From the NCBI RefSeq assembly GCF_001570525.1, contig NZ_BBXC01000008.1, positions 62,001 through 126,000 on the forward strand: 64,000 nucleotides of DNA, given 5' to 3'. Positions 7,742 through 35,265 of this stretch are shown one piece after another. The translations under genes were made by a program, and so were the position numbers. The DNA is from Herbidospora sakaeratensis (GTDB taxonomy: Bacteria; Actinomycetota; Actinomycetes; Streptosporangiales; Streptosporangiaceae). Below the pieces are notes generated by a model. The model had not been told where the DNA came from. It worked only from the letters and a program-made list of their open reading frames with translations, and did not search any database. Positions within the stretch are counted from its first letter, which is position 1, and each line of letters starts with the position of its first letter.

Positions 7742-7773
7742 CCTTGACCCGCATCGGACGTGAAGGAGATGAC

Positions 7774-8769: not shown

Positions 8770-10034
8770 TGCGGGTCCTGTTCGTCGTCAACCCGGAGAA
8801 GTCGATCTTCCAGTACCTGGTCCCGCTCGCCTGGGCGCTGCGCACGGCGGGCCACGAGGTCAGGGTGGCCAGCCAGCCGGCGTTCGCCACGGTGATCACG
8901 CAGGCGGGGCTGACGGCCGTGCCGGTGGGCGAGGACCGCGACCCGTGGCGCATCACCGCGAACCGGCCCGACCTGCGGGAGGCGATGCGGGTCGGCATCA
9001 TGAAGCCGTACGACGCCTTCGACGACTCGGAGAAGGCGACGTGGGAGTACCTGCGGCCGGGGCTGGCCGAGGCGGTCCGGGGCTGGCACCGGGTGGCCAA
9101 CTTCCCGATCATCGCGGAGCTGGTCGGGTTCGCCCGGCACTGGAAGCCCGACCTGGTGCTCTGGGAGCCGCTCACGTTCGCCGGGGGCATCGCCGCCCGG
9201 GCGTGCGGCGCCGCGCACGCGCGGGTGTTGTTCGGCGTCGACGTGTACGGCGGCGTGCGCGCCCTGTTCCGGCGGCTCGACGCGCTGAGGCCGGACGAGG
9301 AGCGGGCCGACCCGATGGCCGAGTGGCTGACCGGCTACGCCCGCAAGTACGGCTTCGACTTCGGCGAGGACCTGGTCACCGGCCACTTCACCGTCGACCA
9401 GCTGCCCCGCAGCCTCCAGGTCGAGGCCGCCGGCCTCGACTACGTGCGCATGCGGCACGTCCCCTACGGCGGGCCCTCGGTCGTGCCCGACTGGTTGCGC
9501 GCCCCGCCGGAACGCCCCCGCGTCGGGTTCACCCTGGGCCTGCACGCGACGGAGATCTACAGCGGTTACAACGTCGACGTCCAGGACATCCTCGACCACC
9601 TGGGCGAGCTCGACGTCGAGGTGGTCGCCACCGTCGCGGCCAGCGAGCGGCCCAAGCTGCGCCGGATCCCGCCCAACGCCCGGGTGGTGCCCTTCGTGCC
9701 GTGGCAGGCCCTCGTGGCGACCTGCGCGGCCGTCGTCCACCACGCCGGGGCCGCCACCCTGGCGACCGCCGCTCTCCGCCCGATCCCGCAGCTCTCGCTG
9801 CACTACCACTTCGACCAGCCGACCCTCGCCCGCAGGCTGGCCGCCCACGGGGCGGGGCTCGAACTGCACACCAGCGAGGCCACCGGGCCCGCCGTCGCCC
9901 ACGCCGTGCACCGGCTGCTCACCGAGCCCGCCTTCGCCCGCCGCGCCCACGACCTGCGCGACGAGGCGCACGCCGCGCCCTCCCCCAACGACCTCGTCCC
10001 GCACCTCGAACAACTCACCGCCAAGCACCGCTAG
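8769..10034 (+). CDS. Glycosyltransferase 1 of the eight-gene array
   Basis: A 421-residue GT-B enzyme of the EryCIII/DesVII-like (DUF1205-containing) family-1 type, opening MRVLFVVNPEKSIFQYLVPL. The acceptor half carries the shared LTAVPVG and WKPDLVLWEPLTFAGGIAARACGAAHAR segments. The nucleotide-binding motif is altered: residues 324-330 read HHAGAAT where most members have HxGxGT, followed by LHYHFDQPTLARRL instead of the usual PWDxDEP. Copy 3 has the same changes, so these two are sister copies. It starts within the stop of the ketoreductase gene. Sugar and acceptor are unknown. Confidence 0.93.
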   Translation: MRVLFVVNPEKSIFQYLVPLAWALRTAGHEVRVASQPAFATVITQAGLTAVPVGEDRDPWRITANRPDLREAMRVGIMKPYDAFDDSEKATWEYLRPGLAEAVRGWHRVANFPIIAELVGFARHWKPDLVLWEPLTFAGGIAARACGAAHARVLFGVDVYGGVRALFRRLDALRPDEERADPMAEWLTGYARKYGFDFGEDLVTGHFTVDQLPRSLQVEAAGLDYVRMRHVPYGGPSVVPDWLRAPPERPRVGFTLGLHATEIYSGYNVDVQDILDHLGELDVEVVATVAASERPKLRRIPPNARVVPFVPWQALVATCAAVVHHAGAATLATAALRPIPQLSLHYHFDQPTLARRLAAHGAGLELHTSEATGPAVAHAVHRLLTEPAFARRAHDLRDEAHAAPSPNDLVPHLEQLTAKHR

Positions 10035-10046
10035 GGAGACGACACG

Positions 10047-11297
10047 ATGCGCGTCCTGCTGGTCACGTACCAGAGCACGACCATCTTCACCGCGATGGTG
10101 CCGCTCGCCTGGGCGCTGCGCACGGCGGGCCACGACGTCCGCGTCGCCAGCCAGCCCTCGTTCACCGGCGTGATCACCCAGGCCGGGCTGACGGCCGTGC
10201 CGGTCGGCCGGAACCACACGACGTGGCGGGTCGGCGAACTGCACCCCGAGCAGGTCGAGGCGGAGCGCAACGGGCTGCCCGCGCCCTACGACACGGTCGC
10301 CGGCGACGCCGAGCCCGACTGGGCGCGCATGCGGGACGGCTACGCCGAGATGCTGAGCCGCTGGCACAAGCTGGACAACTTCCCGATGATCGCCGACCTG
10401 GTCGACTACGCCCGGCACTGGGAGCCCGACCTGGTGATCTGGGAGCCCACCACGTACGCGGGGCCGATCGCGGCGCGGGCCTGCGGCGCGGCGCACGCGC
10501 GGCTGCTCTGGAGCGTGGACGTCTTCGGCGCCGCCCGCGAGCACTACCTGCGCCTCGCGGCCGGGCGGCCCGACGACCCGCTGGGCGAGTGGCTGGGCGG
10601 CTACGCCCGCAAGTACGGCTTCGACTTCGGCGAGGACCTGGTCACCGGCCAGTTCACCATCGACCAGGTGCCCGGCTCGCTGGCCGTGCCGACCGCGCTC
10701 GACCGGGTCCCGATGCGGACCGTGCCCTACGGCGGCCCGGCCGTCGTGCCCGGCTGGCTGCACGCGCCGCCGGAGTTGCCCCGGGTGGCGCTGACGCTGG
10801 GCACCACCGCGACCGAGCGCTACGCCGGGTTCGCCGCCAACGTGCCCGACATCATCGCCGCGCTGGCCGACCTCGACCTCGAACTGGTGGCCACCCTGCC
10901 GGCGAACGTGCAGGGCACGGTCGGCGCCCGCCCGGAACGCACCCGGCTGGAGACCTTCGTCCCGCTGCACGCGCTCGCGCCGACCTGCGCGGTCGTCATC
11001 AACCACGCGGGCCCCGGAACGTTCCTCACCACCGCCCTGTACGGCGTCCCGCAGGTGACGCTGCCGTGGGACTTCGACGAGCCGGAGCTGGCCAGGCGGG
11101 CGGCGGCGCAGGGCGGCACGCTCACGCTGCGCCCCGACCGGGTCACCGGCGAGGAGGTCCGCGACGCCATGTTGCGCCTGATCGACGAGCCGGGCTTCGC
11201 CGACCGGGCCGAGGACCTGCGCCGGGAGATGCTCGCGATGCCGAGCCCGGCCGAGCTGGTGCCCCGCCTCGAAGAGCTGACCGCCAAGCACCGCTGA
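10047..11297 (+). CDS. Glycosyltransferase 2 of the array
   Basis: A 416-residue GT-B enzyme, MRVLLVTYQSTTIFTAMVPL at the start. The donor-site motif is canonical (NHAGPGTFLTT from residue 319), followed by VPQVTLPWDFDEPELARR, where the Asp/Glu pair is expected to contact the donor sugar. Middle segments GYARKYGFDFGEDLVTGQFT and VPYGGPAVVPGWLH are shared with its neighbours. The gene follows copy 1 by 12 nt with a GGGAG ribosome site. It is less like copy 1 than copy 3 is, although it lies between them, which argues for duplication of a larger unit or rearrangement within the array. Confidence 0.93.
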   Translation: MRVLLVTYQSTTIFTAMVPLAWALRTAGHDVRVASQPSFTGVITQAGLTAVPVGRNHTTWRVGELHPEQVEAERNGLPAPYDTVAGDAEPDWARMRDGYAEMLSRWHKLDNFPMIADLVDYARHWEPDLVIWEPTTYAGPIAARACGAAHARLLWSVDVFGAAREHYLRLAAGRPDDPLGEWLGGYARKYGFDFGEDLVTGQFTIDQVPGSLAVPTALDRVPMRTVPYGGPAVVPGWLHAPPELPRVALTLGTTATERYAGFAANVPDIIAALADLDLELVATLPANVQGTVGARPERTRLETFVPLHALAPTCAVVINHAGPGTFLTTALYGVPQVTLPWDFDEPELARRAAAQGGTLTLRPDRVTGEEVRDAMLRLIDEPGFADRAEDLRREMLAMPSPAELVPRLEELTAKHR

Positions 11298-11313
11298 CGC
11301 AGGGAGGACGACC

Positions 11314-12573
11314 ATGCGGGTGATGTTCGCCGCCGTGCCGGCCAAGACGATCTTCCAGTACATGGTGCCGCTGGCCTGGGCGTTCCGCGCGGCGGGGCAC
11401 GAGGTGGTGTTCGCCAGCCAGCCGGGCTTCGCCGGCGTGATCACCTCGGCCGGGCTGACCGCCGTGCCCGTCGGGCGCGACCGGGAGTTGCGGATGGTGC
11501 GCTCGGCCGAGGAGCTGGAGGCGGAGCGGGTGGGCATCCCGCCGCCGTACGACGCCTTCGACGATCCGGAGAAGGCCACCTGGGAGTACCTGAAGCCGGG
11601 CATGGCCCGGGCGGCGAACCTGTGGCACCGCTACGGCAACTTCCCGATCATCGCCGACCTGGTGGACTTCGCCCGGCACTGGAAGCCCGACCTGGTCGTC
11701 TGGGAACCGCTCACCTTCGCCGGTCCGGTCGCCGCGCGGGCCGCCGGGGCCGCGCACGCCCGCCTGCTGTTCAGCGTCGACGTCTACGGCGGGGTGCGCG
11801 CCCTCTACCGGCGGCTCAACGAGCGGCGGCCCCCGGAGCTGCGGTCCGACCCGATGGCCGACTGGCTGGCCGGCTACGCCCGCAAGTACGGCTTCGACTT
11901 CGGCGAGGACCTGCTCACCGGCCAGTTCACCGTCGACCAGCTGCCCCGCAGCCTCCAGGTCGAGGCCGAGGGCCTCTCCTACGCCCGCATGCGGTACGTC
12001 CCCTACGGCGGCCCCGCGGTGGTCCCGGGCTGGTTGCGCGAGCCGCCCGCCCGCCCGCGTGTCGGGTTCACCATGGGGCTCAGCGCGACGGAGACCTACA
12101 CCGGCTACAACGTCGACGTCCAGGACGTCCTCGACCACCTGGGCGAGCTCGACGTCGAGGTGGTCGCCACCATCGCGGCCAGCGAGCAGCCGAAGCTCCG
12201 GCGGATCCCGCCCAACGCCCGGATCGTGTCCTACGTCCCGTGGCACGCCCTGGCCCCCACCTGCGCCGCCGTCATCCACCACGCCGGGGCCGCGACCCTG
12301 GCCACCACGGCGCTGCACCCCGTGCCGCAGCTGTCGCTGCACTACCACTTCGACCAGCCCACCCTGGCCAGGAAGCTGGCCGCGCACGGCGCGGGGCTGG
12401 AGATCCACACCACCCGGGCCACCGGCCCAGCCGTCGCCGAAGCCGTCGACCGGCTGCTCACCGAGCCGTCGTTCGCCCGGCGCGCCCACGACCTCCGCGA
12501 CGAGATGCACGCGCTGCCCAGCGCCGCCGAGCTCGTCCCGCACCTCGAAGAACTCACCGCCAAGCACCGCTGA
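11314..12573 (+). CDS. Glycosyltransferase 3 of the array
   Basis: A 419-residue GT-B enzyme very close to copy 1. Both contain GGVRALxRRL, DFGEDLxTGxFTVDQLPRSLQVEA, YNVDVQD-LDHLGELDVEVVAT and the unusual HHAGAATLAT motif (from residue 322 here) followed by LHYHFDQPTLAR. The Gly-to-Ala change in the diphosphate-binding loop is therefore shared by a recent pair rather than being a single error. An AGGGAGGACGACC ribosome site precedes the ATG. Such pairs may add the same sugar at different positions, or one may be redundant; the sequence cannot say which. Confidence 0.93.
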   Translation: MRVMFAAVPAKTIFQYMVPLAWAFRAAGHEVVFASQPGFAGVITSAGLTAVPVGRDRELRMVRSAEELEAERVGIPPPYDAFDDPEKATWEYLKPGMARAANLWHRYGNFPIIADLVDFARHWKPDLVVWEPLTFAGPVAARAAGAAHARLLFSVDVYGGVRALYRRLNERRPPELRSDPMADWLAGYARKYGFDFGEDLLTGQFTVDQLPRSLQVEAEGLSYARMRYVPYGGPAVVPGWLREPPARPRVGFTMGLSATETYTGYNVDVQDVLDHLGELDVEVVATIAASEQPKLRRIPPNARIVSYVPWHALAPTCAAVIHHAGAATLATTALHPVPQLSLHYHFDQPTLARKLAAHGAGLEIHTTRATGPAVAEAVDRLLTEPSFARRAHDLRDEMHALPSAAELVPHLEELTAKHR

Positions 12574-12590
12574 CCAGGAAAGAGACCCGG

Positions 12591-13871
12591 ATGCGCGTCC
12601 TGATTACGACATATCCAGAGAGGACCCATTTCCTGCTGATGGTGCCGCTCGCGTGGGCGCTGCGCACGGCGGGCCACGAGGTGCGGGTGGCGGTGCAGCC
12701 GAAGTTCGCCGACGTGGTCACCCAGGCCGGGCTGACGGCCGTGCCGGTGGGCGGCGACCGCGACCTGTGGCAGGTCATCGGCCGGGTGCGGAACCTGCCC
12801 CGGCAGGACCGGGCGTTCGCGGGGAACCGGGAGCCCGGCTACCCGTCGCCCTACGACGCCTTCGAGCGCGACCCCGCCGACCTCACCTGGGAGGACCTGC
12901 GCGACGGCTACGAGCGGCAGATCTCCGGCTGGCACAAGGTGAGCAACGTGCCCATGGTCGCCGGGCTGGTCGACTTCGCCCGGCACTGGCGGCCCGACCT
13001 GGTCATCTGGGAGCCGACGACCTTCGCCGGCGCCGTCGCGGCCCGCGCCTGCGGGGCCGCGCACGCCCGGCTGCTCATCGGCGCGGACGTCTACGGCATC
13101 GCCCGGGAGCACTTCCTGCGCCTGAAGGACGGCCGGGCCGACCCCCTCGCCGACTGGCTCGGCTCCTACGCCCGCAAGTACGGCTTCACCCCGGGAGAGG
13201 ACCTCGCCACCGGCGACTTCACCCTCGACGTGCTGCCGCCCCCGCTGCGCGTCCAGGCCCGCGACCTCACCTATGTGCCCGTCCGCTACACCCAGTACGG
13301 CGGCCCCGCGTCGGTGCCCGCCTGGTTGCGCACCCCGCCCGAGCGCCCCCGGGTCGCCCTCACGATGGGCCTGACCATCACCGAGCACGACGTGGGCTAC
13401 CCGGTCGACATGCAGGGACTCCTCGACGAGCTGGCCGACCTGGACATCGAGCTGGTCGCCACCGTCCCCGACGCGGAGAAGGAGAAGCTGGAGCGCATTC
13501 CGGCCAACGCGCGCCTGGTGCCGTACGTGCCGCTGCCCGACCTGGTGCCGACCTGCTCGGCCGTGATCCACCACGGCGGCGTCGGCACCATGGTCACCAC
13601 CGCGCAGTTCGGCGTCCCGCAACTCTCCCTGCCGTGGGACGTCGACCAGCCCGCCCTCTCCACCCTGCTGGCCGCCGCCGGAGCAGGGCTCACCATGCAC
13701 TCCACCACGGCCACCGGCCCGGCCGTCCGCGACGCGGTGCGGCGGCTGCTGACCGAGCCGTCCTTCGCCGAGGGCGCGGCGCGGCTGCGGGCCGAGGCGC
13801 TGTCGGTGCCGGCTCCCAACCAGGTCGTGCCCCGCCTGGAGGAGCTGGCCGCCCGGCACGGCCGGAGGTGA
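12591..13871 (+). CDS. Glycosyltransferase 4 of the array
   Basis: A 426-residue GT-B enzyme starting MRVLITTYPERTHFLLMVPL at ATG 12591 after an AAAGAG ribosome site, 17 nt from copy 3. It pairs best with copy 5: both have TTYPExxHFLxM, GGDRDLWQ, a GEDLATGDFT segment and a MSNVPMV/VSNVPMV stretch. The donor motif HHGGVGTMVTT and LPWDVDQPALS are intact. The acceptor-side loop between LTAVPVG and YDAF is longer than in copies 1-3 (IGRVRNLPRQDRAFAGN), as expected if acceptor specificity differs. Confidence 0.93.
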   Translation: MRVLITTYPERTHFLLMVPLAWALRTAGHEVRVAVQPKFADVVTQAGLTAVPVGGDRDLWQVIGRVRNLPRQDRAFAGNREPGYPSPYDAFERDPADLTWEDLRDGYERQISGWHKVSNVPMVAGLVDFARHWRPDLVIWEPTTFAGAVAARACGAAHARLLIGADVYGIAREHFLRLKDGRADPLADWLGSYARKYGFTPGEDLATGDFTLDVLPPPLRVQARDLTYVPVRYTQYGGPASVPAWLRTPPERPRVALTMGLTITEHDVGYPVDMQGLLDELADLDIELVATVPDAEKEKLERIPANARLVPYVPLPDLVPTCSAVIHHGGVGTMVTTAQFGVPQLSLPWDVDQPALSTLLAAAGAGLTMHSTTATGPAVRDAVRRLLTEPSFAEGAARLRAEALSVPAPNQVVPRLEELAARHGRR

Positions 13872-13879
13872 GGGCCGCC

Positions 13880-15136
13880 ATGCGCGTGTTGTTCACCACC
13901 TATCCGGAGAAGGCGCACTTCCTGGCCATGGCGCCGCTGGCGTGGGCGCTGCGCGCGGCGGGCCACGAGGTGGTGTTCGCCGTGCAGCCCGCGTTCTGCC
14001 CGGTGGTCACCCAAGCCGGGCTCACCGCCGTGCCCATCGGCGGCGACCGGGACCTCTGGCAGCTGATGAACCGCGACCTGAACTGGATCGCGGCCGGCAT
14101 GAACGGCCTGCCGGTGCCCTACGACGCCGCCGAATGGCGGCCCCAGGACGTCACCTGGTCCTACCTGCGCGACGGGTACGCCGCCCAGGTGCCGCGCTGG
14201 CACAAGATGAGCAACGTCCCCATGGTGCCCGCCCTGGTCGACTTCGCCCGGCACTGGAGACCCGACCTGGTGATCTGGGAGCCGACCACCTACGCGGGCG
14301 CCGTCGCGGCCCGGGCCTGCGGCGCGGCCCACGCCCGCCTGCTGTTCAGCGTCGACGGCTTCGGCGTGACCCGGGAGCACTACCTCCGCCTCAAACCCGA
14401 CGGGTCCGGCGACGACCCCCTGGCCGAATGGCTCGACGGCTACGCCCGCGCCTACGGGTTCCCGTACGGCGAGGACCTCGCGACCGGCGACTTCACGATC
14501 ACGCTGATGCCGCCCTCGATGCGCCTGGAGGCCGAGGGCCTGCGCTACGTGCCGCTGCGCTACGTGCCCTACGGGGGCCCGGCCGTCGTCCCCGGCTGGT
14601 TGCGGGCCGCGCCGGAGCGGCCGAGGGTCGCCTTCACCACGGGCATCAGCTTCGCCGAGCACGGCGCGGGCAGCGCGGTGAGCCTCCTCGACGTGCTCGG
14701 CGCCCTGTCCGAACTCGACGTCGAGCTGGTGGCCACGGTGGGCGACGCCGACCGGGAGCGCCTCGGCGGGAAGCTGCCGGGCAACGTGCGGCTGGTGCGG
14801 TTCGTGCCGATGCAGGCGCTGGTGGCGACCTGCTCGGCCGTCATCCACCACGCCGGGTTCGGCACGCTGGCGACCACGGCGCTGCAGGGCGTGCCCCAGC
14901 TGGCGATGCCGTTCGACGGCGACGGCCCGGCGCTCGCCCGGCGGATCGCCGCGCAGGGCGCCGGGCTGGCGCTGCTGGCCGCCCAGGTCAGCGGCCCGAC
15001 CATCCGCGACCGGTTGTCGCGGCTGCTGCGCGAGCCCGCCTTCGGCGTCGCGGCGGGCCGCCTGCGGCAGGAGATGCTCGACATGCCCTCCCCCAACGAA
15101 CTGGCCGGGGACCTGGCCGAGCTGGCCGGGCGGTGA
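13880..15136 (+). CDS. Glycosyltransferase 5 of the array
   Basis: A 418-residue GT-B enzyme, ATG 13880 preceded by GGAGG (around 13864), 8 nt after copy 4. It starts MRVLFTTYPEKAHFLAMAPL and shares most acceptor-side features with copy 4. The donor motif is HHAGFGTLATT. The following segment reads MPFDGDGPALARR rather than PWDFDEP, so the residues that normally contact the sugar (Asp/Glu-Pro) are replaced by Gly-Asp-Gly. This suggests a different donor or altered activity; structural modelling would be needed to tell. Confidence 0.92.
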   Translation: MRVLFTTYPEKAHFLAMAPLAWALRAAGHEVVFAVQPAFCPVVTQAGLTAVPIGGDRDLWQLMNRDLNWIAAGMNGLPVPYDAAEWRPQDVTWSYLRDGYAAQVPRWHKMSNVPMVPALVDFARHWRPDLVIWEPTTYAGAVAARACGAAHARLLFSVDGFGVTREHYLRLKPDGSGDDPLAEWLDGYARAYGFPYGEDLATGDFTITLMPPSMRLEAEGLRYVPLRYVPYGGPAVVPGWLRAAPERPRVAFTTGISFAEHGAGSAVSLLDVLGALSELDVELVATVGDADRERLGGKLPGNVRLVRFVPMQALVATCSAVIHHAGFGTLATTALQGVPQLAMPFDGDGPALARRIAAQGAGLALLAAQVSGPTIRDRLSRLLREPAFGVAAGRLRQEMLDMPSPNELAGDLAELAGR

Positions 15137-15141
15137 CCGGC

Positions 15142-16416
15142 ATGCGCGTGCTGTTCGTCGCCAACCCCGAGAAGGCCCACCTGCTGGCCATGGTGCCGCT
15201 GGCCTGGGCGCTGCGCGCGGCCGGCCACGAGGTGCGGGTCGCCTCGCAGCCCGCCTTCGCCGGCGTGATCACCCAGGCCGGGCTCACCGCCGTGCCGGTC
15301 GGCCGCGACGCCGACCTGTGGCGGCTGCTCGCCCGCGACCCCCGCCTGCCCGGCTGGACGTGGCGGCCCGCCTACGGCCTGCCCGCCCCCTATGACGTGG
15401 CCCAGTTCCCCGAGCGGGGCGCCTGGGAGCACCTGACCGAGGGGTACGCCGAGGTGCTGCGCCACTGGCACCGGCCCGGCTGCCTGCCCATGATCGCCGG
15501 GCTGACCGAGTTCGCCCGCCACTGGCGGCCCGACCTCGTCGTCTGGGAGCCGCTCGCCTTCGCGGGCCCGATCGCCGCCCGCGCCTGCGGGGCCGCGCAC
15601 GCGCGCCTCCTCTGGAGCCTGGACGTCTTCGGCCTGACCCGCGCCCGCTTCCTGGACCTGAAGGAGGGCCGGCCGGCGCACGACCGCGCCGACCCGCTGG
15701 CCGAGTGGCTCGACGGCTACGCCCGCATGCACGGCGGCGCCTTCGCCGAGGACATGGTGACCGGCCAGTTCACCATCGACCAGCTGCCCGCCTCGATCGC
15801 CGTGCGGGCCCCGGGCCTGCGCCACGTCCCGGTCCGGTACGTCCCCTACGGCGGGCCCTCCGTGGTGCCCGGCTGGTTGCGCGAACCGCCCCGGCGTCCC
15901 CGCGTCGCGCTGACGATGGGCGTCAGCCTCACCGACCACGCGGCCGGGTACTCGGTCAGCGTGCGCGACCTCCTGGAGGCGCTGGCCGACCTCGACGTCG
16001 AGGTCGTCGCCACCATTGCCGACGCCGAGCGGCACGGCCTGCCCACGGTGCCGGGCAACGCCCGCGTGGTGCCCTACGTGCCGCTCCAGGCGCTGGCCGC
16101 GACCTGCGCCGCGGTGCTCAGCCACGGCGGCTTCGGCACCATGCTCACCACGGCCGGGCACGGCGTGCCGCAACTCGCGATGCCGTGGGACTTCGACGGC
16201 CCGCTGTTCGCCCGGCGGGTGGCCGCGCAGGGCGCGGCGCTGGCCGTCGACGCCGACCGGGTGACCGGCGAGCACGTCCGCGCCGCCGTGCTGCGGCTGC
16301 TGGAGGAACCCGCCTTCGCCAAGCGGGCCGACGACCTGCGGGCCGAGATGGCCGCCCTGCCGAGCCCCGGCCGGCTGGTCGCCCGGCTCGAGGAACTGAC
16401 CGAGAGGAACCGCTAG
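15142..16416 (+). CDS. Glycosyltransferase 6 of the array
   Basis: A 424-residue GT-B enzyme, MRVLFVANPEKAHLLAMVPL. The ATG at 15142 is 5 nt past the stop of copy 5; a GTG at 15133 overlapping that stop would add three residues (VTG) and cannot be excluded. The donor motif SHGGFGTMLTT replaces the first His by Ser, as in several family members. MPWDFDGPLFARR follows, with Gly in place of Glu, the same change as in copy 5. An acceptor loop RDPRLPGWTWRPAYGL is unique to this copy. Confidence 0.92.
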   Translation: MRVLFVANPEKAHLLAMVPLAWALRAAGHEVRVASQPAFAGVITQAGLTAVPVGRDADLWRLLARDPRLPGWTWRPAYGLPAPYDVAQFPERGAWEHLTEGYAEVLRHWHRPGCLPMIAGLTEFARHWRPDLVVWEPLAFAGPIAARACGAAHARLLWSLDVFGLTRARFLDLKEGRPAHDRADPLAEWLDGYARMHGGAFAEDMVTGQFTIDQLPASIAVRAPGLRHVPVRYVPYGGPSVVPGWLREPPRRPRVALTMGVSLTDHAAGYSVSVRDLLEALADLDVEVVATIADAERHGLPTVPGNARVVPYVPLQALAATCAAVLSHGGFGTMLTTAGHGVPQLAMPWDFDGPLFARRVAAQGAALAVDADRVTGEHVRAAVLRLLEEPAFAKRADDLRAEMAALPSPGRLVARLEELTERNR

Positions 16417-16418
16417 CC

Positions 16419-17684
16419 ATGCGCGTACTGTTCGTGATCAACCCCGAGACCACCACGCTGCTGCCCATGGTGCCGATGGCCTGGGCGCTCCGCACCGCCG
16501 GGCACGACGTCCGGGTCGCCAGCCAGCCCGGCTTCGCCAAGGAGATCAACCAGGCCGGGCTCACCGCCGTGCCCGTCGGCCGCGACATGGACATGTACCG
16601 CCTCGTCGAGGTGGCGATGGACGTCCACGAGGACATCGGGCACGGCCTGCACCGGCCGTTCGACGTCGTCGACGACCCCGCCAAGGCGACCTGGGAGCGC
16701 ATGCTGCCGGGCTACGTGGAGGCGGTCGCGGAGGAGCACCGGCGGGAGAACTTCCCGATCATCGCCGACCTGGTCGACTTCGCCCTGCACTGGGAGCCCG
16801 ATCTGGTGATCTGGGAGCCGTCGACGTACGCGGGCGGCATCGCCGCCAAGGCGTGCGGGGCGGCCTCGGCACGGCAGCTGATCTCCATCGACATGTTCGG
16901 CGTCACCCGCGACCACTTCCTGCGGCTCAAGGCGCAGCGGCCGCCGGAGGACCGGGCCGACCCGCTGGCCGACTGGCTCGGCGGCTACGCCCGCAAGTAC
17001 GGCGGCGAGTACACCGAGGACATGGCCTCCGGCCACTTCACCATCGACCAGCTGCCTCCCTCGCTTCGCCGGGAGGCCGACCTGCACAACGTGCCGCTCC
17101 GCTACGTCCCCTACAACGGCGTGGCCGTCGTGCCCGACTGGTTGTGGCAGGAGCCGCGGCGGCCGCGCGTCGCCCTCACCCTGGGCTGGACGGCCGGGGA
17201 ACGCTTCGCGACGTACACGGTCGACGTGCAGACCGCGCTCGACGCGCTGGCCGACCTCGACGTCGAGGTGGTGGCCACCATCGCCGAGGCCGCCCAGAAG
17301 GAGCTGCGGGTGCCGGACAACGCGCGCATCGTGCCCTTCGTCCCGCTGCACGCGCTGGCCCCCACCTGCAGCGTCGTCATCAACCACGCGGGCGCCGGCA
17401 CGCTGATCACCACCGCCGGATACGGGATCCCGCAGCTCACCCTGCCGTGGGACATCGACGAGCCCGAGTTGTCCCGCCTGCACAGCGCCCAGGGCGCCGG
17501 GCTGACGATCCGCGGCGACCTGGCGTCCGAGGAGGAGATCCGCACCCAGGTGCGGCGGCTGCTCGACGAGCCTTCCTTCGCCCAGCGCGCCCGCGACCTG
17601 CGCGACGAGATCCACGCCATGCCGACGCCCAACCAGCTGGTCCCGCAGCTGGAGGAGCTCACCGCCAAGTACCGGAGCCGCTGA
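16419..17684 (+). CDS. Glycosyltransferase 7 of the array
   Basis: A 421-residue GT-B enzyme, MRVLFVINPETTTLLPMVPM, only 2 nt after copy 6. With copy 8 it forms a pair sharing FDVVDDPAxATWERML, REHFLRLKAQxPP and GRDxDMxRL. The donor motif NHAGAGTLITT and LPWDIDEPELSR are canonical. The conserved VPYGGP is replaced by VPYNGVAVVPDWLW, a local change near the inter-domain linker. The gene overlaps copy 8 by one base (TGATG), implying coupled translation. Confidence 0.93.
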   Translation: MRVLFVINPETTTLLPMVPMAWALRTAGHDVRVASQPGFAKEINQAGLTAVPVGRDMDMYRLVEVAMDVHEDIGHGLHRPFDVVDDPAKATWERMLPGYVEAVAEEHRRENFPIIADLVDFALHWEPDLVIWEPSTYAGGIAAKACGAASARQLISIDMFGVTRDHFLRLKAQRPPEDRADPLADWLGGYARKYGGEYTEDMASGHFTIDQLPPSLRREADLHNVPLRYVPYNGVAVVPDWLWQEPRRPRVALTLGWTAGERFATYTVDVQTALDALADLDVEVVATIAEAAQKELRVPDNARIVPFVPLHALAPTCSVVINHAGAGTLITTAGYGIPQLTLPWDIDEPELSRLHSAQGAGLTIRGDLASEEEIRTQVRRLLDEPSFAQRARDLRDEIHAMPTPNQLVPQLEELTAKYRSR

Positions 17685-18961
17685 TGCGGGTCCTGTTCGC
17701 CATCACGCCCGGCACCAGCACGTTCCTGCCGCTGGTGCCGCTGGCGTGGGCGCTGCGCACGGCGGGCCACGAGGTCAGGGTGGCCAGCCAGCCCGGCTTC
17801 GCCGACGCGATCACCCGGGCCGGGCTGACCGCGGTGCCGGTGGGCCGCGACCTCGACATGGTCCGGCTCCTCCGGGGCTACGGCGTGACCGACGAGCAGC
17901 TGGAGCAGGCGCGGGCCGGGCTGTCGCCGCCGTTCGACGTCGTGGACGACCCCGCGCACGCCACCTGGGAGCGCATGCTCGGCGGCTACGCCGACGCCGT
18001 CGACGGCTACCGGGCCGAGAACCTGCCGATGATCGCCGGCCTGGTCGAGTTCGCCCGGCGCTGGCGTCCCGACCTGGTGATCTGGGAGCCGTTCAGCTAC
18101 GCGGGCGCCATCGCGGCCCGGGCCGTCGGCGCCGCGCACGCCCGCCAGTTGTGGTGCCTGGACGTCTTCGGCCTCGCCCGCGAGCACTTCCTGCGGCTCA
18201 AGGCGCAGCAGCCGCCGCAGGAGCGGGCCGACCCGCTGGCCGACTGGCTCGGCGGCTACGCCCGCAAGTACGGCTTCCCCTACGGCGAGGACCTGGCCAC
18301 CGGGCACTTCACCATCCACCAGCTGCCCGCCTCGCTCAGCGACCAGGCCGACGGGCTGCACTACCTGCGGATGCGGTACGTCCCGCACGTCGGCGTCGCC
18401 ACCGTGCCCCGCTGGTTGCGCACCCCACCGGCGCGCCCGAGGGTCGCGCTGACCCTCGGCTTCGCCGCCGACGGCTTCTCGGGCGGCTTCGCGATCGGCG
18501 TGCAGGAGGCGCTCGACCACCTGGCCGACCTCGACGTCGAGGTGGTCGCCACCATCCCCGACGCGCAGCGGGCCCGGCTGCGCCGGGTGCCGGCCAACGC
18601 CCGGCTGGTGCCGTTCGTGCCGCTGGACGCGCTCGTGCCCACCTGCGCGGCCGTCATCGACCACGGCGGCGACGGCACCGTGCTGACGACCGCCCTGCAC
18701 GGCGTGCCGCAACTGGCCGTCGGCCACCACTTCAACGAGCCGATCATGGCGCGCAAGCTCGCCGCGCAGGGGGGCGCGCTGCAGATGCGTCCCGCCGAGG
18801 CCACCGGGCCGGCGATCCGGGAGGCCGTGCAACGCCTGCTGACCGACCCCGGGCTGCGGGCGGGGGCCGAGCGGCTGCGCGCGGAGATGCACCGGCTGCC
18901 CACGCCCAACGACCTGGTGCCGGAACTGGAGGCGCTCACCGAGAAGCACCGGAGCTCCTAG
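17684..18961 (+). CDS. Glycosyltransferase 8, last of the array
   Basis: A 425-residue GT-B enzyme, MRVLFAITPGTSTFLPLVPL, starting inside the stop of copy 7. It is paired with copy 7 by sequence. The donor motif is DHGGDGTVLTT (first His replaced by Asp). It is followed by LAVGHHFNEPIMARKL, so the usual PWD is lost, resembling the LHYHFDQP variant of copies 1 and 3. VPYGGP is VPHVGVATVPRWL here. It is the final gene of the right-going operon; a strong hairpin lies 6 nt beyond its stop. Confidence 0.93.
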   Translation: MRVLFAITPGTSTFLPLVPLAWALRTAGHEVRVASQPGFADAITRAGLTAVPVGRDLDMVRLLRGYGVTDEQLEQARAGLSPPFDVVDDPAHATWERMLGGYADAVDGYRAENLPMIAGLVEFARRWRPDLVIWEPFSYAGAIAARAVGAAHARQLWCLDVFGLAREHFLRLKAQQPPQERADPLADWLGGYARKYGFPYGEDLATGHFTIHQLPASLSDQADGLHYLRMRYVPHVGVATVPRWLRTPPARPRVALTLGFAADGFSGGFAIGVQEALDHLADLDVEVVATIPDAQRARLRRVPANARLVPFVPLDALVPTCAAVIDHGGDGTVLTTALHGVPQLAVGHHFNEPIMARKLAAQGGALQMRPAEATGPAIREAVQRLLTDPGLRAGAERLRAEMHRLPTPNDLVPELEALTEKHRSS

Positions 18962-19008: not shown

Positions 19009-19938
19009 TCAGGACGCGGTTCTCGCGTAGAGCGCCTGCCAGTAGAACGTCCACGGGCGGGCCCAGCCGTCCTCCACCAGGGTCCACTCCGGCCCGGGCC
19101 GGTAGACGGCGACGAAACGGGCCGCGTGCTCGCGCACGGCCGAGGCGTCGTGGACGTCGACGATGTCGCGCAGCAGCCCCGACCCGAGCGCCAGCCGGAC
19201 CGCCTCCTCGCCGTCGTACTGCCGGTCGAGGCTGTAGTCGAGGTACTTCCCGACGGGGTTCTTGGTGTAGAAGGCTGTGGCGACCGTGTCGATGACCGTG
19301 AGATAGTTGCGCGCCGTCTCCTCGTTCATCTCGGCGAAGGAGTCGATGTTCAGGCACAGGTCGAAGGCGGGGCCGCCGAGGAGGCCGTCCACCTCGTCGA
19401 TGCCGAGGAAGCGCACCCGGCCGAACCGCTCGGGCGTGAGCACCGCGCGCAGGTAGTCGCGCGAGAGGGTCAGGCAGTTCTCCAGGTCCACGATGACGTA
19501 CTCGGCGACGTCGTGGTTGGACAACACGGCGTGGCAGGAGCGGCCGTAGCCGGCCCCGATCTCCAGCACCCGGGCCCCGTCGAGCTTCACCGAGCGGCTG
19601 ACGAACTCGAGCTCGTGCACCGCCTGAAGGTAGTCGAGGCAGACCCGGTCGCCGTCCACGGTGACCGTGATCGGGGCGCCGACGTCGCGGTTGCGGATGC
19701 GGGCCAGGCGGGCCCGGTTCTCCGGCGACAGGTCGGCGGCCAGGTTGTAGGTCAGGGTCTTGAGGTAGCGGAGGCCGTTCGCCTCCGGGTTCCACAACGA
19801 GATCTTGTAGTTGACCGTGCTCGACTTGAAGGTGGCCAGGTCGAGCGCGTCCAGCGCCAGGCTCGTGCGGTTGATGCGGGCCCACTGCGGGCTCTGGCCG
19901 TACTTGTGGGTCGCCGGGGCGGTCTCGCGGTCACTCAT
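19009..19938 (-). CDS. Putative sugar O-methyltransferase
   Basis: A 309-residue protein. A characteristic N-terminal region (WARINRTSLALDAL, FKSSTVNYKISLWNPEANG) precedes a Rossmann methyltransferase core with SAM motif I VLEIGAGYGRS, then YVIVDLENCL and DLCLNIDSFAEM. This layout matches the family called putative sugar O-methyltransferase. It would methylate a hydroxyl of a free or attached sugar. It is the last gene of the left-going operon; its ATG (19938) overlaps the stop of the upstream methyltransferase by 8 nt. Position and acceptor are unknown. Confidence 0.82.
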   Translation of the reverse strand: MSDRETAPATHKYGQSPQWARINRTSLALDALDLATFKSSTVNYKISLWNPEANGLRYLKTLTYNLAADLSPENRARLARIRNRDVGAPITVTVDGDRVCLDYLQAVHELEFVSRSVKLDGARVLEIGAGYGRSCHAVLSNHDVAEYVIVDLENCLTLSRDYLRAVLTPERFGRVRFLGIDEVDGLLGGPAFDLCLNIDSFAEMNEETARNYLTVIDTVATAFYTKNPVGKYLDYSLDRQYDGEEAVRLALGSGLLRDIVDVHDASAVREHAARFVAVYRPGPEWTLVEDGWARPWTFYWQALYARTAS

Positions 19939-20851
19939 CGCCGTCGGTCTCCGGTTTGCGGGCCACGACGAGCACGACCCCGTCGTGCTCCTCCTCGTCG
20001 TCCTCGTACTCCAGCCAGTCGACGTCGTCGCCGACGCAGAAGATGCCGAGCAGGTCGGCGGGCAGGTCGCCGTGCCGGGCGGCGTACTCGCGGGTGGCCA
20101 CGTACAACCAGCGGAACGACTGCTTGGTGTGCTCGGTGAGGTCGGCGACCTCCTCGACCGCGAAGCCGGCCCGCTCGGCGAGGCCGGGATAGTCCTCCAG
20201 GCGGGCCATGGGCGCCATCCGCCAGGCCGCGGTCGCTTTGAGGAACGCCTCCTCCTCCGCCGGGTCGAGCTCCAGCGGGCCGCGCCGGATGTTGTCGGTG
20301 AGCACCAGGCGGCCGCCGGGGCGCAGCACGCGGGCGCACTCGCGCAGCGCGGCCGTCCGGTCGGGGAAGTGCGGGACCGTCTCGGCCGCCAGCACGGCGT
20401 CGAAGGTCCCCGCCTCGAAGGGCAGGTCGAGCGCGTCGGCGTGCCGGAACGTCACCCGGTCGGTCATCGACTCGGCCTCGGCCCGCGCCGAGGCCAGCTC
20501 GACCTCGACCCGGCTGATCGCGACGCCGGTCACCCGCGCGCCGGTCTCCCGCGCCACCTGGAGCGCGGCGGCCCCCGGCCCGCAGCCGAGGTCCAGGACG
20601 TGGTCGCCGGGCCCGATCCGGAGCGCGGTGGTCATGCGGGACGTCAGCCGGGCGGCGGCCGGCCCGAACGGCGCGGCGTCGTCGGGGCCGGTCCAGTAGC
20701 CCACGTGGATCTGGCCGCCGTAGATCTCCTCCAGCGCGCGGGCGTTGCGGTCGTAGAAGTCGGCGACCTGGTCGGGGGTGGGACCCTGGCGGGTGTCCCG
20801 GGTGCCGGTCGCGAACGAGCGCGCGCTGCGGCGCAACTGCTCCACGCTCAC
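19931..20851 (-). CDS. Class I SAM-dependent methyltransferase
   Basis: A 306-residue protein with the UbiE/COQ5-like core: motif I HVLDLGCGPGAAALQVA, ADALDLPFEAGTFDAVLAAETVPHF and VLRPGGRLVLTDN. An N-terminal ~60-residue cap (VADFYDRNARALEEIYGGQIHVGYW) is typical of natural-product O-/C-/N-methyltransferases. The GTG start (20851) overlaps the lyase stop as GTGA. The acceptor could be the hydroxycinnamate ring, an amino sugar nitrogen or a branched sugar carbon; nothing in the sequence decides. A Glu/Asp-rich stretch (DWLEYEDDEEEHD) near the C-terminus is unusual. Confidence 0.83.
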   Translation of the reverse strand: MSVEQLRRSARSFATGTRDTRQGPTPDQVADFYDRNARALEEIYGGQIHVGYWTGPDDAAPFGPAAARLTSRMTTALRIGPGDHVLDLGCGPGAAALQVARETGARVTGVAISRVEVELASARAEAESMTDRVTFRHADALDLPFEAGTFDAVLAAETVPHFPDRTAALRECARVLRPGGRLVLTDNIRRGPLELDPAEEEAFLKATAAWRMAPMARLEDYPGLAERAGFAVEEVADLTEHTKQSFRWLYVATREYAARHGDLPADLLGIFCVGDDVDWLEYEDDEEEHDGVVLVVARKPETDGDE

Positions 20852-22371
20852 CGGCGGTCCCCCCGCTCTTCGGCCAGCTCGGCGGCGGCCTGGCGGTCGA
20901 GCAGGTCGCGGGCCGCCCGCACCTCGGCCGCCATCGGCCGGTCGGCGTCCAGCGGCGGCGAGATCTCGGCCAGTTCCGCCCACACCCCCGACGGCCGGTC
21001 GCCGACCATGACGGCGAGCTGGGCCACGCCCAGCGCCAGCGAGCCGATGGTCAGCCAGCCGAGGTCGAGGCCGTCGGCCACGGCGTTGGCGCCGTTCAGC
21101 GCCATCGGCACGTGGTCCTGGTTCCAGCCGTTGGTGGGCAGCGTGGTCAGCGACGCCGGCGTGACCGTCTGCCTGATCTTGGACACGAACGAGGTGGCGC
21201 TGATGTGCACGCCGGCCAGCCCGCAGCCGCGCCCGGCCCGGGGGGTGAGCATCATCGGCAGGTCGCCGTTGGTGGCCGGGTTGAGCAGCAGCCCGAGTTG
21301 CCGTTCGGCCAGGTAGGCGGCCATGTGCATGGACAGGCCGATCTGGTCGGACGCCAGGCCCACCGGCATGGCGTGGAAGTTGCCGCCGTGCAGGACCTGG
21401 TCGTCGTAGGTGATCGGGTTGTCCTGGCAGCCGTTCGCCTCGCGGTCGAGCACGTCGCCCGCCATGGTGAGCTGGTCGAGCACCGCGCCGAGCACCTGCG
21501 GCGCGCACCGCAGGCTGTACGGCTCCTGGAGCGGCCGCCGCTCGTCCCTGACCAGGCCGTCCGGCAGCTCCTGCCTGATCCAGCGGGCCACGGTGTGCTG
21601 GCCGAGCTGGCCCCGGGCGACGGCGTGGCCGTCGTCGTAGTGCTCGGGGTTGGCGCGCAGCAGGGCGGCCAGCCGTCCGGCGAGCATCGCGGCGGCGCGC
21701 ACCAGCCGCAGCGCCGACTGGTGGTTGAGGATCGACACCGCCAGGCTCGCGCCGGTGCCGTTGACGAAGGCGAGCGCCTCCCTGACCGGCCACTCGAACG
21801 GCTCGGCGCCGAGCGCGGCCAGCGCTTCGCGGGCGGGCCGGATCGTCCAGCCGCCGCCGTCCCCGCGCACCCACGCCTCGCCCGTGCCGGTGAACGTCAG
21901 CGCGGCGTGCGCGAGCGGCTGGAGGTCGCCGCTGGCGCTGACCGTGCCGTCGCGCGGGATGACCGGCGTGTAGCCCGCGTTCCACAGGTCGGCCAGCACC
22001 TGCCAGAACTCCGGCGTGACGGCGGAGTAGCCGCGCCGCATGCTGTTGAGCCGCAGGAACAGGATCAGCCGGCTGACCTCGGGGCTCAGCGGGCGGCCCT
22101 GCCCGGTGCCCAGGTGGGAGATGAGCGAGCTGCCCTGCTCCATCTCCGACTCGGCCGAGTAGAGCACGAGCGGGCCGAACCCCTGGGTGAGGCCGTAGAT
22201 GGGCCGCTCGGAGGCCAGGTGCTTGGCGATCGTCGCCGCGCTGGCCTCCATCCGGGCGACGGCGGCGTCGTCACACGGCTCGATCCGGCTGTCCCAGGCG
22301 GCGCTCGCGGCGATGTCCGCCAGGTGCGCCGCGCCGGTCGTGGTCCCCGGCGTTTCGGCGATCAGTGTCAC
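20848..22371 (-). CDS. MIO ammonia-lyase, probably tyrosine ammonia-lyase
   Basis: A 507-residue member of the HAL/PAL/TAL family. The self-cyclising triad Ala146-Ser147-Gly148 lies in GTVSASGDLQPLAH and the catalytic Tyr59 in IYGLTQGFGP. The substrate-selectivity pair aligns (by eye) as His86-Leu87 in SLISHLGTG, the pair found in Rhodobacter tyrosine ammonia-lyase. PAL-type enzymes have Phe there, and HAL or SgcC4-like mutases have Ser-His. The predicted reaction is tyrosine to p-coumarate plus ammonia. Translation is coupled at both ends: the GTG start (22371) overlaps the ligase stop and the stop overlaps the methyltransferase start. An aminomutase activity cannot be fully excluded. Confidence 0.88.
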   Translation of the reverse strand: MTLIAETPGTTTGAAHLADIAASAAWDSRIEPCDDAAVARMEASAATIAKHLASERPIYGLTQGFGPLVLYSAESEMEQGSSLISHLGTGQGRPLSPEVSRLILFLRLNSMRRGYSAVTPEFWQVLADLWNAGYTPVIPRDGTVSASGDLQPLAHAALTFTGTGEAWVRGDGGGWTIRPAREALAALGAEPFEWPVREALAFVNGTGASLAVSILNHQSALRLVRAAAMLAGRLAALLRANPEHYDDGHAVARGQLGQHTVARWIRQELPDGLVRDERRPLQEPYSLRCAPQVLGAVLDQLTMAGDVLDREANGCQDNPITYDDQVLHGGNFHAMPVGLASDQIGLSMHMAAYLAERQLGLLLNPATNGDLPMMLTPRAGRGCGLAGVHISATSFVSKIRQTVTPASLTTLPTNGWNQDHVPMALNGANAVADGLDLGWLTIGSLALGVAQLAVMVGDRPSGVWAELAEISPPLDADRPMAAEVRAARDLLDRQAAAELAEERGDRR

Positions 22372-23492
22372 TGTGCTTCCTCTGCTTCGCTCGTGGGTGG
22401 GGTCGAAAGGTGCCGTACCTTGCCGAGTGCGGACCGCTCGATCCGGGGGACCGCGTGCACGCGCCGGGGCCGCACGCCCATGCGCTCGAAGGCCGCGGCC
22501 AGGTCGAGGTCGGCCAGGCCGCCGCCCGGTTTCGGCACGACCAGCAGGTCGACGTGCTCGCCGATCATCCGGTCGGCGACCGGGAGCACGGCCAGGTCGG
22601 CGCAGTCGAGCACGCCGCGCAGGGCGTTCTCGACCTCGTCGAGGTTGATCCGGCGGCCGTTCACCTTGACCAGGCGGGAGCGGCGTCCGGCGAAGTGGAA
22701 CCGCCGCTCGTCGAGGGGGCGCACGCGGTCGTCGGCCTCCCAAACCGAGGGCGCGGGCTCGCCCGGGGCGAAGGCCAGGCGGGGGCTGGAGATGACGAGG
22801 GGCACCTCGTCGTCCTCGTCGGGCTCGCCGAGTTCGGCGAAGGAGACGTCGGGGAAGAGCGTCCACGACGGCGGCTCGCCCTCCCGCCAGCGGCGGGTCG
22901 CGATGCCCCCGGCCTCGGTCGACCCGAGCATCTCGACGATCAGCGCGCGGTCGGGCCCGGCGGCGGCCAGGAACTCCCCGGCCGTCTCGGGGATCATCGC
23001 GCCGCCGTAGAGGACCGTGACGTGCTCCATCTCCCGCACCCACGCGAGGTGCTGGAGCAGCAGCGTGAAGATCCACGGCGTGGCCACCACGACCACCCGG
23101 CGCTGTTCGATCGGCGGCATGGCCCCGTAGAACGTGGGCTTGTGCCAGACCGGCACCCGCAGATGGGCCGGCACCAGCACACTGGCCAGCGCGCCGAACA
23201 GGTGCGCGGGCGGCACGCACGACACGACGGCCTCCGGCTTCTCCGGCGCGACCATGTCGGCGAGCAGGCCCGCCTCCCGCCAGACGTTCTCCCGCAGCCG
23301 GCGCCACAGGCGGCTCTCCCCGGTGCTGCCGGAGGTGCGGAAGTCGATCACCGGGGGCAGCAGGTCCATGACGAGCCGCTCGGGCCCGCCGTCGCCGACG
23401 TCCCATTCCACGTGCCAGGCGCGCTCCGTCACGGCCGGCGCGGCGAATTCGAGTGACAACAATTCACCCGGGCTCAACTCGGCATAATCCAT
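22368..23492 (-). CDS. Short acyl-adenylating ligase for the aromatic acid
   Basis: A 374-residue ANL-superfamily enzyme. The phosphate-binding motif TSGSTGES is at about residues 52-59. Later come YGGAMIPETAGEF, the aromatic-acid-pocket/adenine motif EMLGSTEAGGIA and a C-terminal FAGRRSRLVKVNGRRINLDEVE lysine/hinge region. It lacks the ~120-150 residues that precede this motif in ordinary CoA ligases, and resembles the compact ligases that pair with ammonia-lyases in aryl-polyene clusters. It should adenylate p-coumarate and load the free ACP (3613-3933) or CoA; the acceptor thiol is inferred. A 52-nt gap separates it from rmlA. Confidence 0.82.
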   Translation of the reverse strand: MDYAELSPGELLSLEFAAPAVTERAWHVEWDVGDGGPERLVMDLLPPVIDFRTSGSTGESRLWRRLRENVWREAGLLADMVAPEKPEAVVSCVPPAHLFGALASVLVPAHLRVPVWHKPTFYGAMPPIEQRRVVVVATPWIFTLLLQHLAWVREMEHVTVLYGGAMIPETAGEFLAAAGPDRALIVEMLGSTEAGGIATRRWREGEPPSWTLFPDVSFAELGEPDEDDEVPLVISSPRLAFAPGEPAPSVWEADDRVRPLDERRFHFAGRRSRLVKVNGRRINLDEVENALRGVLDCADLAVLPVADRMIGEHVDLLVVPKPGGGLADLDLAAAFERMGVRPRRVHAVPRIERSALGKVRHLSTPPTSEAEEAQ

Positions 23493-23544: not shown

Positions 23545-24417
23545 TCAACCGAACGACTCCGCGATTTCCATCAAATAGCGGCCGTATTCCGAGTTCTTCA
23601 TTTCGGCGCCGAGCCGGTGACACGCGTCGGTGTCGATGTATCCCATCCGCAGCGCGATCTCCTCGAGACAGGCGACCCGCACGCCCTGGCGTTTCTCGAT
23701 GGTCTGCACGTACTGACCGGCAGCCAGGATCGAGTCGTGGGTGCCGGCGTCGAGCCAGGTGAACCCACGCCCCAGCCGGACCAGGTGGGCCCGCCCCTGC
23801 TTCAGGTACGCCTTGTTGACGTCGGTGATCTCCAGTTCCCCCCGGTCGGAGGGCACCAGGTCGCGGACGATCTCCAGGACGTCGTTGTCGTAGAGGTAGA
23901 GGCCGGTGATGGCGTCGTTGGAGCGCGGCCGCAGCGGCTTCTCCTCGATGGAGACCAGCACGCCCTCGGCGTCGACCTCGCCGATCCCGTATCTCTCGGG
24001 GTCGGACACGGGGTAGCCGAACATGGTGCAGCCGTTCAGCCTGCTGCGGCTGGCCCGCAGGATGCGCGGGAAACCGGCCCCGTGGAAGAAGTTGTCGCCC
24101 AGGATGAGCGCCACCTCGTCGTCGCCGACGTGATCGGCCCCGATGACGAACGCCTCCGCGATGCCGCGCGGCTCGGGCTGCTCGGCGTAGGTGATCTCCA
24201 GCCCGAGGTGCGACCCGTCGCGCAGCAGCCGGCGCAGCAGCGGCAGGTTGTCGGGCGTGGAGATGACCAGGATCTCGCGCAGCCCGGCCAGCATGAGCAC
24301 CGAAAGCGGGTAATAGACCATCGGCTTGTCATAGATGGCGAGCAGTTGCTTCGACGTCGCCAGTGTCAGGGGATGCATACGCGTGCCGCTGCCGCCGGCG
24401 AGAACAATTCCTTTCAT
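23545..24417 (-). CDS. rmlA: Glucose-1-phosphate thymidylyltransferase
   Basis: A 290-residue nucleotidyltransferase, normal length for RmlA. The start MKGIVLAGGSGTRMHPLT is the nucleotide-binding loop. ILGDNFFHG carries the metal-binding Asp, and SIEEKP and WLDAGTHDS match the family. It makes dTDP-glucose, the entry to all 6-deoxysugars here. It is the promoter-proximal gene of the left-going operon. The next enzyme, dTDP-glucose 4,6-dehydratase (RmlB), is not in the window. A primary-metabolism rml copy elsewhere is likely in an actinomycete, so this one is probably cluster-dedicated. Confidence 0.95.
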   Translation of the reverse strand: MKGIVLAGGSGTRMHPLTLATSKQLLAIYDKPMVYYPLSVLMLAGLREILVISTPDNLPLLRRLLRDGSHLGLEITYAEQPEPRGIAEAFVIGADHVGDDEVALILGDNFFHGAGFPRILRASRSRLNGCTMFGYPVSDPERYGIGEVDAEGVLVSIEEKPLRPRSNDAITGLYLYDNDVLEIVRDLVPSDRGELEITDVNKAYLKQGRAHLVRLGRGFTWLDAGTHDSILAAGQYVQTIEKRQGVRVACLEEIALRMGYIDTDACHRLGAEMKNSEYGRYLMEIAESFG

Positions 24418-24609
24418 CACCCGCCCCTTCTTTTCGATTATCGGGTGGATGCGGCCCAGGGTAATCACGGGCAGGACCGGCGACCAAGAAAGGAGAACCG
24501 GGCTCGACTTCTCCCGTTCGGCCGTGCTATCGCTTTCGCCGATCCATCGCGGGACACATCGCGGCACACGGGTGGACCGGCGGCGGAACGCCCCACCGGT
24601 GTGAGAACG
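24418..24609. promoter_or_regulatory. Divergent intergenic region, right edge of the cluster
   Basis: A 192-bp gap lies between rmlA (left-going) and the RCC1 gene (right-going). It must contain the promoter of the rmlA-ligase-lyase-methyltransferase operon. No clear -35/-10 pair or palindrome was identified by eye. The change from biosynthetic to unrelated genes here makes it the probable right border of the gene cluster. Confidence 0.4.
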
Positions 24610-25998: not shown

Positions 25999-26093
25999 CC
26001 GCCCGCACGGCCCCGCCACCCCGAAACGACCAGCGCCGCCCGAAGCCGCCGCCGAAGCCGAAGAACGTCGGCGGCGCCCGTTAGGTTGGGGCG

Positions 26094-26645: not shown

Positions 26646-26652
26646 GTCCCGG

Positions 26653-28269: not shown

Positions 28270-28312
28270 AGTGAGATGACCACTCGGTCGTGACTCGATT
28301 GCCAGGAAAACA

Positions 28313-35176: not shown

Positions 35177-35265
35177 CAGAACCGCTCCGGGAACAGCAGC
35201 GCCACGACGACGAAGACCGTCAGCGCGACCGCGCCGACGAGCCCGATGAGGTTGACGACGCTCAC
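35176..35265 (-). CDS. kdpF: Small membrane subunit KdpF
   Basis: A 29-residue single-helix peptide read on the reverse strand from GTG 35265: it begins [17 protein letters not shown] and ends LLFPERF, matching the consensus of KdpF (ending PExF). KdpF stabilises the KdpABC complex. Start and stop overlap both neighbours (GTGA upstream, ATGA downstream), as in other actinobacterial kdp operons. Confidence 0.88.

Follow-up and report, generated by a model that had tools for sequence, protein, structure and literature searches.

Saccharomicin is a heptadecaglycoside antibiotic whose glycan is anchored on a caffeoyl-taurine amide, and the making of this anchor has so far been a matter of speculation (caffeoyl-CoA plus a penicillin amidase). 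The aglycone is N-(3,4-dihydroxycinnamoyl)taurine with the first fucose on the p-phenol, according to PMC8234114, and Sam8 is reported as the tyrosine ammonia-lyase (TAL) and Sam5 as the hydroxylase of the pathway. In aryl polyene biosynthesis, ApeH is described as loading an aryl acid onto a dedicated carrier without a CoA ester; the GNATs of lipolanthine/goadvionin type are described as acylating class III lanthipeptides, N-terminus included. A 64,000-nucleotide stretch of the 8.6-Mb genome of Herbidospora sakaeratensis (C8:62001-126000; here called the window, in whose own numbering unprefixed coordinates are given) encodes a TAL-type lyase, a compact ligase, a small carrier protein, two GNATs and a block of glycosyltransferases (GTs) with counterparts in the saccharomicin (sam) cluster. 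In our reading the window supplies the glycan and the anchor in a saccharomicin-type cluster, and a six-module nonribosomal peptide synthetase (NRPS) to its left makes up the other half. That a sam-type cassette is joined to an NRPS here is very probable.

The sam cluster is one of two ligase loci in Saccharothrix espanaensis DSM 44229 (G383), and was recognized as such because its ten GTs, TAL, hydroxylase and ligase fit the description in PMC3469384. It has 26 genes, ten GTs included, in common with the Herbidospora cluster, at 44-82% identity and in largely the same order. The aminotransferase is 82% identical, the Sam5 ortholog (HpaB) 81%, and the two GNATs, GNATa and GNATb, 50% and 45%. 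The genus-mates used for comparison are H. yilanensis (G043) and H. galbida (G040).

In the pathway favoured here, the TAL would make p-coumarate, which the HpaB-type hydroxylase would probably convert to the 3,4-dihydroxy form. The ligase would adenylate the acid and then load it onto the discrete carrier orf106, from which a GNAT (GNATb favoured, GNATa second) would pass the acyl group to a small amine as an amide. The amine is taurine in saccharomicin; in Herbidospora it would most likely be the N-terminal glycine (Gly1) of the NRPS peptide. The GTs would assemble the oligosaccharide at the phenol, the site used in saccharomicin, and the hydroxycinnamoyl group would bridge peptide and glycan. 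Taken as a whole, this explanation has about an even chance of being right.

Lyase, ligase and discrete carrier

The lyase gene (20848..22371, minus strand) encodes a 507-aa Sam8 ortholog (75% identity) that matches Pfam Lyase_aromatic at 3.7e-113. Numbered from a GTG start at 22371, the protein has both marks of a TAL, the Ala-Ser-Gly of the methylidene-imidazolone (MIO) group at 146 (ASG146) and a His86-Leu87 pair, which is exactly the pair named in a preliminary description of this DNA. The His-Leu pair alone is insufficient to exclude an aminomutase; the model for tyrosine 2,3-aminomutase gives 243 bits, under its cut-off.

The ligase gene (22368..23492, minus strand) shares 4 bp with the lyase gene and encodes a compact, 374-aa Sam7 ortholog (65% identity) with a match to Pfam AMP-binding at 5.7e-08. 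Its top NCBIfam model is TIGR02372, 4-coumarate--CoA ligase, at 68 bits where the family cut-off is 334.7. It contains a PPAHxxG stretch, which we take to be an acyl-ligase family trait. The activated hydroxycinnamate that had been proposed from these two genes is supported, and the lyase and ligase together probably make it in carrier-bound form.

The likely carrier, orf106 (3613..3933, plus strand), is a discrete small protein with a D-S-F motif in which Ser47 opens helix 2. D46, S47 and F48 are invariant across the 18 aligned rows of its family, and the structure model has a helix at 47-61 with Ser47 at its start, as expected of the Asp-Ser motif of a carrier. The family profile, to which nine of the 27 carrier genomes contributed no row, matches the solved structures of AcpM (1e-4) and DltC (5e-4). 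The sam cluster encodes a carrier 72% identical to orf106 over 86 aa.

The carrier follows the ligase from genome to genome. In the 345 genomes of the order that were searched it is present in all 27 that have the ligase and absent from the remaining 318, far beyond chance. In 32 genomes beyond the order, picked from 80 ligase loci, it occurs in 12/12 where ligase identity is at least 49%, in 2/9 at 40-47% and in 0/11 at 38% or less. Co-occurrence alone is the same for a carrier that is loaded by the ligase and for one that merely belongs to the same cluster, and the better argument is an operon in Nocardioides zeae, where GNAT (9423-9989), ligase (9986-11110) and carrier (11107-11403) genes overlap at their ends. 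It is likely that orf106 is the hydroxycinnamoyl carrier. In N. zeae, a 60KD_IMP (YidC/OxaA-type) gene comes straight after the carrier (L156:11400-12173).

A classical second acyl carrier protein (ACP) stands beside the ligase in all six loci that bear a ketosynthase (KS), and in none of the 16 that showed no KS and no NRPS; the flanks span 12 to 80 kb, and absences in the short stretches carry little weight. Since this second carrier tracks the KS, it is disfavoured as the sole aryl carrier.

The window itself has no KS, as had been stated beforehand: a six-frame scan of its whole length with purpose-built models gave no KS, ketoacyl synthase III (KAS III), condensation (C) domain or LanKC. 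A KS-bearing gene does occur further left, at C8:6995-7831; some 76 kb separate it from the ligase and some 55 kb from the window, and H. yilanensis has its counterpart (G043 C14:452607-453434). It is taken to be outside the cluster, because no KS match appears in 120 kb around the ligase of genome G312 or in 94.8 kb of H. galbida.

Acyl transfer and the peptide acceptor

The NRPS, encoded 8-26 kb to the left of the window, has six modules with five C domains, so that the tacit assumption of no condensation enzyme nearby proves wrong once the flank is included. A ketosynthase or condensation gene in the left flank had been named as the finding that would refute the proposed transfer to an amino sugar; taken literally, a condensation gene is there, but the first NRPS module is adenylation-thiolation (A-T), no starter C domain precedes it, and no part of the NRPS is laid out to begin from an acyl group. 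The domain order of the two genes is A-T-C-A-T-C-A-T-C-A-T, then C-A-T-C-A-T-thioesterase. Pfam places four Condensation stretches in the 3687-aa protein, and a starter C domain was considered on that count; mapping gives A-T first and three C domains. The A-domain codes, read by eye, are DILQLGLVW, DLTKVGSVA, DAWQFATID, DLEFQGSIV, DFWNVGMVH and DVLQLGNVF, of which we take the first to be glycine-like and the fifth threonine-like.

Relatives of the NRPS differ at this very point. The Amycolatopsis anabasis NRPS matches module by module (A1 63%, A2 58%, A3 58%, A4 62%, A5 66%) and has a C domain ahead of A1 in which HQSAGGG replaces HHxxxDG (L257:18479-19624). The ortholog in G125 (L245) likewise has a C domain ahead of module 1, with the motif HQSAGDE. 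To judge by these motifs, both first C domains, each ahead of a glycine-type module, look like catalytically ruined relics. No C domain precedes module 1 in the NRPS of the window cluster, in G312 or in H. galbida.

Both proteins that had been put forward as transfer candidates are conserved from Herbidospora to sam, in separate clades, and have the GNAT fold. GNATa (2888..3418, minus strand) lies between the carrier and aminotransferase genes; its model has a pLDDT of 94 and GNAT/SpeG-type structure matches down to 7e-10. GNATb (7055..7741, plus strand) matches Acetyltransf_3 at 3.7e-07. The acyl-CoA pyrophosphate loop GxGxE is kept in canonical form in GNATb and lost in GNATa; these labels stem from a rough sequence pattern, wrong for a few rows (e.g. 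G135_5391 and G119_10846), and are used for GNATa and GNATb only. In a tree of 65 rows, the GNATa clade holds the window, sam, S. tamanrassetensis, A. anabasis, G312, G125 and H. galbida (100/99). The GNATb clade (100/97) unites GNATb of the window with its counterparts, among them the GNAT of A. anabasis, where the gene order is GNATb ortholog, carrier, MbtH, NRPS. The idea that only GNATa matters, H. galbida being without GNATb, was dropped; a second GNAT of H. galbida is encoded on a different contig and groups with GNATb in the tree. Across the carrier genomes, a family GNAT is at most 700 bases from the carrier in 21 of 27, the exceptions being G040, G088, G116, G123, G225 and G118.

Gly1 appears the likeliest acceptor because module 1, with its glycine code, has no C domain before it, and the homology to sam together with the A. 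anabasis operon points to both Gly1 and GNATb. Some members of the family have no such GNAT, so the transfer step is one that we infer. The case for a GNAT as the hydroxycinnamoyl transferase is evenly balanced, and a peptide N-terminus has roughly the same standing as the acceptor.

Several observations weigh against this pathway. Fold matches to orf106 are weak (best E 0.077), the top one being a carrier protein, and Pfam PP-binding gives nothing in orf106 and only 0.019 for one relative. The glycine assignment uses codes read by eye and matched informally. G225 has the cassette and no family GNAT at E 1e-20, none was found in the stretches of G379, Kibdelosporangium (L127) and Actinosynnema (L135), and in G040, G088, G116 and G123 the carrier is not beside one. 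GNATa lies next to a sugar aminotransferase gene, which also suits amino-sugar acylation. For the taurine amide, Strobel et al. (PMC3469384) proposed caffeoyl-CoA and a penicillin amidase (Sam36), and a penicillin amidase gene is indeed present at the sam edge (L268:13358-15649).

The amino sugar was the acceptor named in the preliminary description; a GNAT, here GNATa, would move the hydroxycinnamoyl group from the carrier to give an N-hydroxycinnamoyl aminosugar. In the Herbidospora clusters, as in G312, G125 and A. anabasis, GNATa and the aminotransferase gene are neighbours, which keeps this reading alive. The carrier and a GNAT often have aminotransferase and 2,3-dehydratase genes no more than 5 kb away, amino-sugar genes go with most cassettes whatever the backbone, and the N. 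zeae stretches that were read show no NRPS, LanKC or KS. Saccharomicin, however, has both GNATs and amino sugars, yet its amide is to taurine; in A. anabasis, moreover, GNATb and the carrier precede an NRPS. A peptide N-terminus fits both better, and acylation of an amino sugar is unlikely. GNATa is a second candidate for hydroxycinnamoyl transfer, or a candidate amino-sugar N-acyltransferase.

The ligase could instead make a CoA ester, with a hydrolase-type amidase or another acyltransferase forming the amide and orf106 bearing a different cargo. This agrees with the published Sam7/Sam36 scheme and with the amidase gene at the sam edge, but the carrier family accompanies the ligase in every ligase genome and in no other searched genome of the order, and the two form an operon in N. 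zeae. No amidase family turned up among the scanned Herbidospora cluster proteins, and we consider the CoA ester improbable. In the main text of PMC3469384 the word acetyltransferase is absent and acyl carrier protein appears only among the abbreviations, and the searches made of the open-access literature brought up no publication that gives a carrier or a GNAT a role in saccharomicin biosynthesis.

An NRPS C domain might use the hydroxycinnamoyl-S-carrier directly, or acylate a side-chain amine such as that of diaminopropionate. The left flank has five C domains to offer along with OCD/PALP (diaminopropionate-type) genes, and C6 carries a variant motif, FHAILDG. Against this, module 1 has no preceding C domain, those of the relatives look ruined, and the ligase-carrier pairs of S. 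espanaensis and N. zeae occur without an NRPS in the stretches read; a direct role for a C domain is very unlikely.

The C-1027 gene set resembles the combination of halogenase, HpaB and free carrier found in this one cluster, and the aminomutase model does score with the lyase, although under its cut-off. A tyrosine aminomutase whose product the ligase, carrier, halogenase and HpaB would turn into a C-1027-like beta-tyrosyl unit on the carrier nevertheless has very little likelihood, since the lyase is so close to the reported TAL and the PPAHxxG stretch of the ligase is acyl-ligase-like.

Genes around the cassette

The left part of the window encodes sugar enzymes. GT0 (3..374, minus strand) extends past the left end and is followed by an NDP-hexose 2,3-dehydratase (391..1728, minus) and the NDP-sugar aminotransferase (DegT/DnrJ; 1764..2870, minus). 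Right of the carrier come a bPH_2 (PH-domain) membrane protein with a sam counterpart (4541..6097, plus), a sugar aldo/keto reductase (6012..7058, plus) and, beyond GNATb, a NAD-dependent sugar epimerase/reductase (7744..8769, plus). The region 4041-6097 encodes two bPH_2-type membrane proteins in all, both matched in the saccharomicin cluster, and a role in self-protection is possible. GT1-GT8 (8754..18961, plus) are eight EryCIII-type enzymes in the order of the sam GT block, at 58-69% identity. A NanM-like sugar O-methyltransferase (19009..19938, minus) and an S-adenosylmethionine-dependent methyltransferase (19931..20851, minus; 44% to the homolog adjoining the TAL in sam) lead up to the lyase, and RmlA, a glucose-1-phosphate thymidylyltransferase (23545..24432, minus), follows the ligase. 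Right of the cluster, 24610-37224 is ordinary chromosome, where genes for an RCC1-repeat protein with a PASTA domain and for a NADAR protein accompany a kdp operon for potassium transport. Neither the Rfam nor the tRNA scan found a match in the window.

The left flank has, besides the two NRPS genes, genes for OCD and PALP enzymes, the HpaB hydroxylase, PMT_2, a GFO oxidoreductase, a 3,5-epimerase and another epimerase, an OTC-family carbamoyltransferase, a two-component pair, a sulfotransferase, an O-carbamoyltransferase, a C-methyltransferase and a second methyltransferase, a halogenase, a flavin reductase and MbtH. The OCD/PALP and OTC-family genes adjoin the NRPS (L011:11258-13146 and L012:10939-11847), which suggests that the peptide contains diaminopropionate and a ureido derivative. 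Viomycin-type pathways have a diaminopropionate/ureido gene logic of comparable kind.

Comparison with described systems

The aryl polyenes resemble the window cluster in that a ligase charges a dedicated carrier with an aryl acid, and differ in that the window cluster has no KS. The KS-bearing relatives of the cassette have the second ACP, a pattern that matches the starter and extender carriers ApeE and ApeF. The p-coumaryl ligase of photoactive yellow protein (TIGR02372) is the top NCBIfam match of the window ligase and presumably likewise compact, but the window ligase falls far under the cut-off of that family.

The goadvionin GNAT draws its acyl group from an ACP; Herbidospora differs from the lipolanthine/goadvionin systems in pairing a non-ribosomal peptide with an aromatic acyl group. 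Other ligase loci carry LanKC-type genes, pyrrolyl-type genes or NRPSs. A TAL-ligase-carrier-GT cassette lies beside class III LanKC-type and pyrrolyl-type genes at L058:17033-19552, in L046, L052, L060 and others, in the Nocardiopsis, Streptomonospora and Nonomuraea relatives, and it is possible that these loci make heavily glycosylated lanthipeptides. As a tentative view, the compact ligase, DltC-like carrier and GNAT may form a portable cassette that caps unrelated scaffolds with a hydroxycinnamate as glycan anchor. The scaffold would be taurine in the case of saccharomicin and a non-ribosomal peptide in Herbidospora, and class III lanthipeptides might have that part in the Nocardiopsis and Nonomuraea relatives. 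In the NRPS lineage the GNAT would then have replaced the starter C domain, of which A. anabasis and G125 keep what looks like a ruined remnant and Herbidospora nothing. If true, this would be a new start for an N-acylated non-ribosomal peptide.

Saccharomicin remains the closest system. HpaB, RmlA, the ligase, TAL, methyltransferase, GT block, epimerase, aldo/keto reductase, bPH_2, carrier, both GNATs, aminotransferase, 2,3-dehydratase, 3,5-epimerase, GFO and C-methyltransferase occur in both clusters, although HpaB, GNATb and the C-methyltransferase differ in position. Herbidospora has eight GTs in the block plus GT0, sam ten and S. tamanrassetensis twelve. The sam order is carrier (L268:2926-3270), GNATb ortholog (L268:3622-4185), PALP enzyme (L268:4201-5493), GNATa ortholog (L268:5541-6074), aspartate-decarboxylase-type gene (Sam29; L268:6163-6885) and aminotransferase, whereas in Herbidospora the carrier, GNATa and aminotransferase are contiguous and the NRPS is elsewhere. 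The PALP enzyme and the decarboxylase could make taurine through cysteate, a possible route to a precursor whose origin the saccharomicin paper left open. Herbidospora lacks both genes among the GNATs, and an aspartate decarboxylase of the Sam29 type is absent from the scanned proteins of the window and left flank. What Herbidospora adds is the six-module NRPS with the OCD/PALP, OTC-like, halogenase and carbamoyltransferase genes. The carrier and the GNATs offer a different and directly testable route to the caffeoyl-taurine amide of saccharomicin, and the Herbidospora clusters indicate an unexplored group in which a saccharomicin-like glycan would be carried on a peptide.

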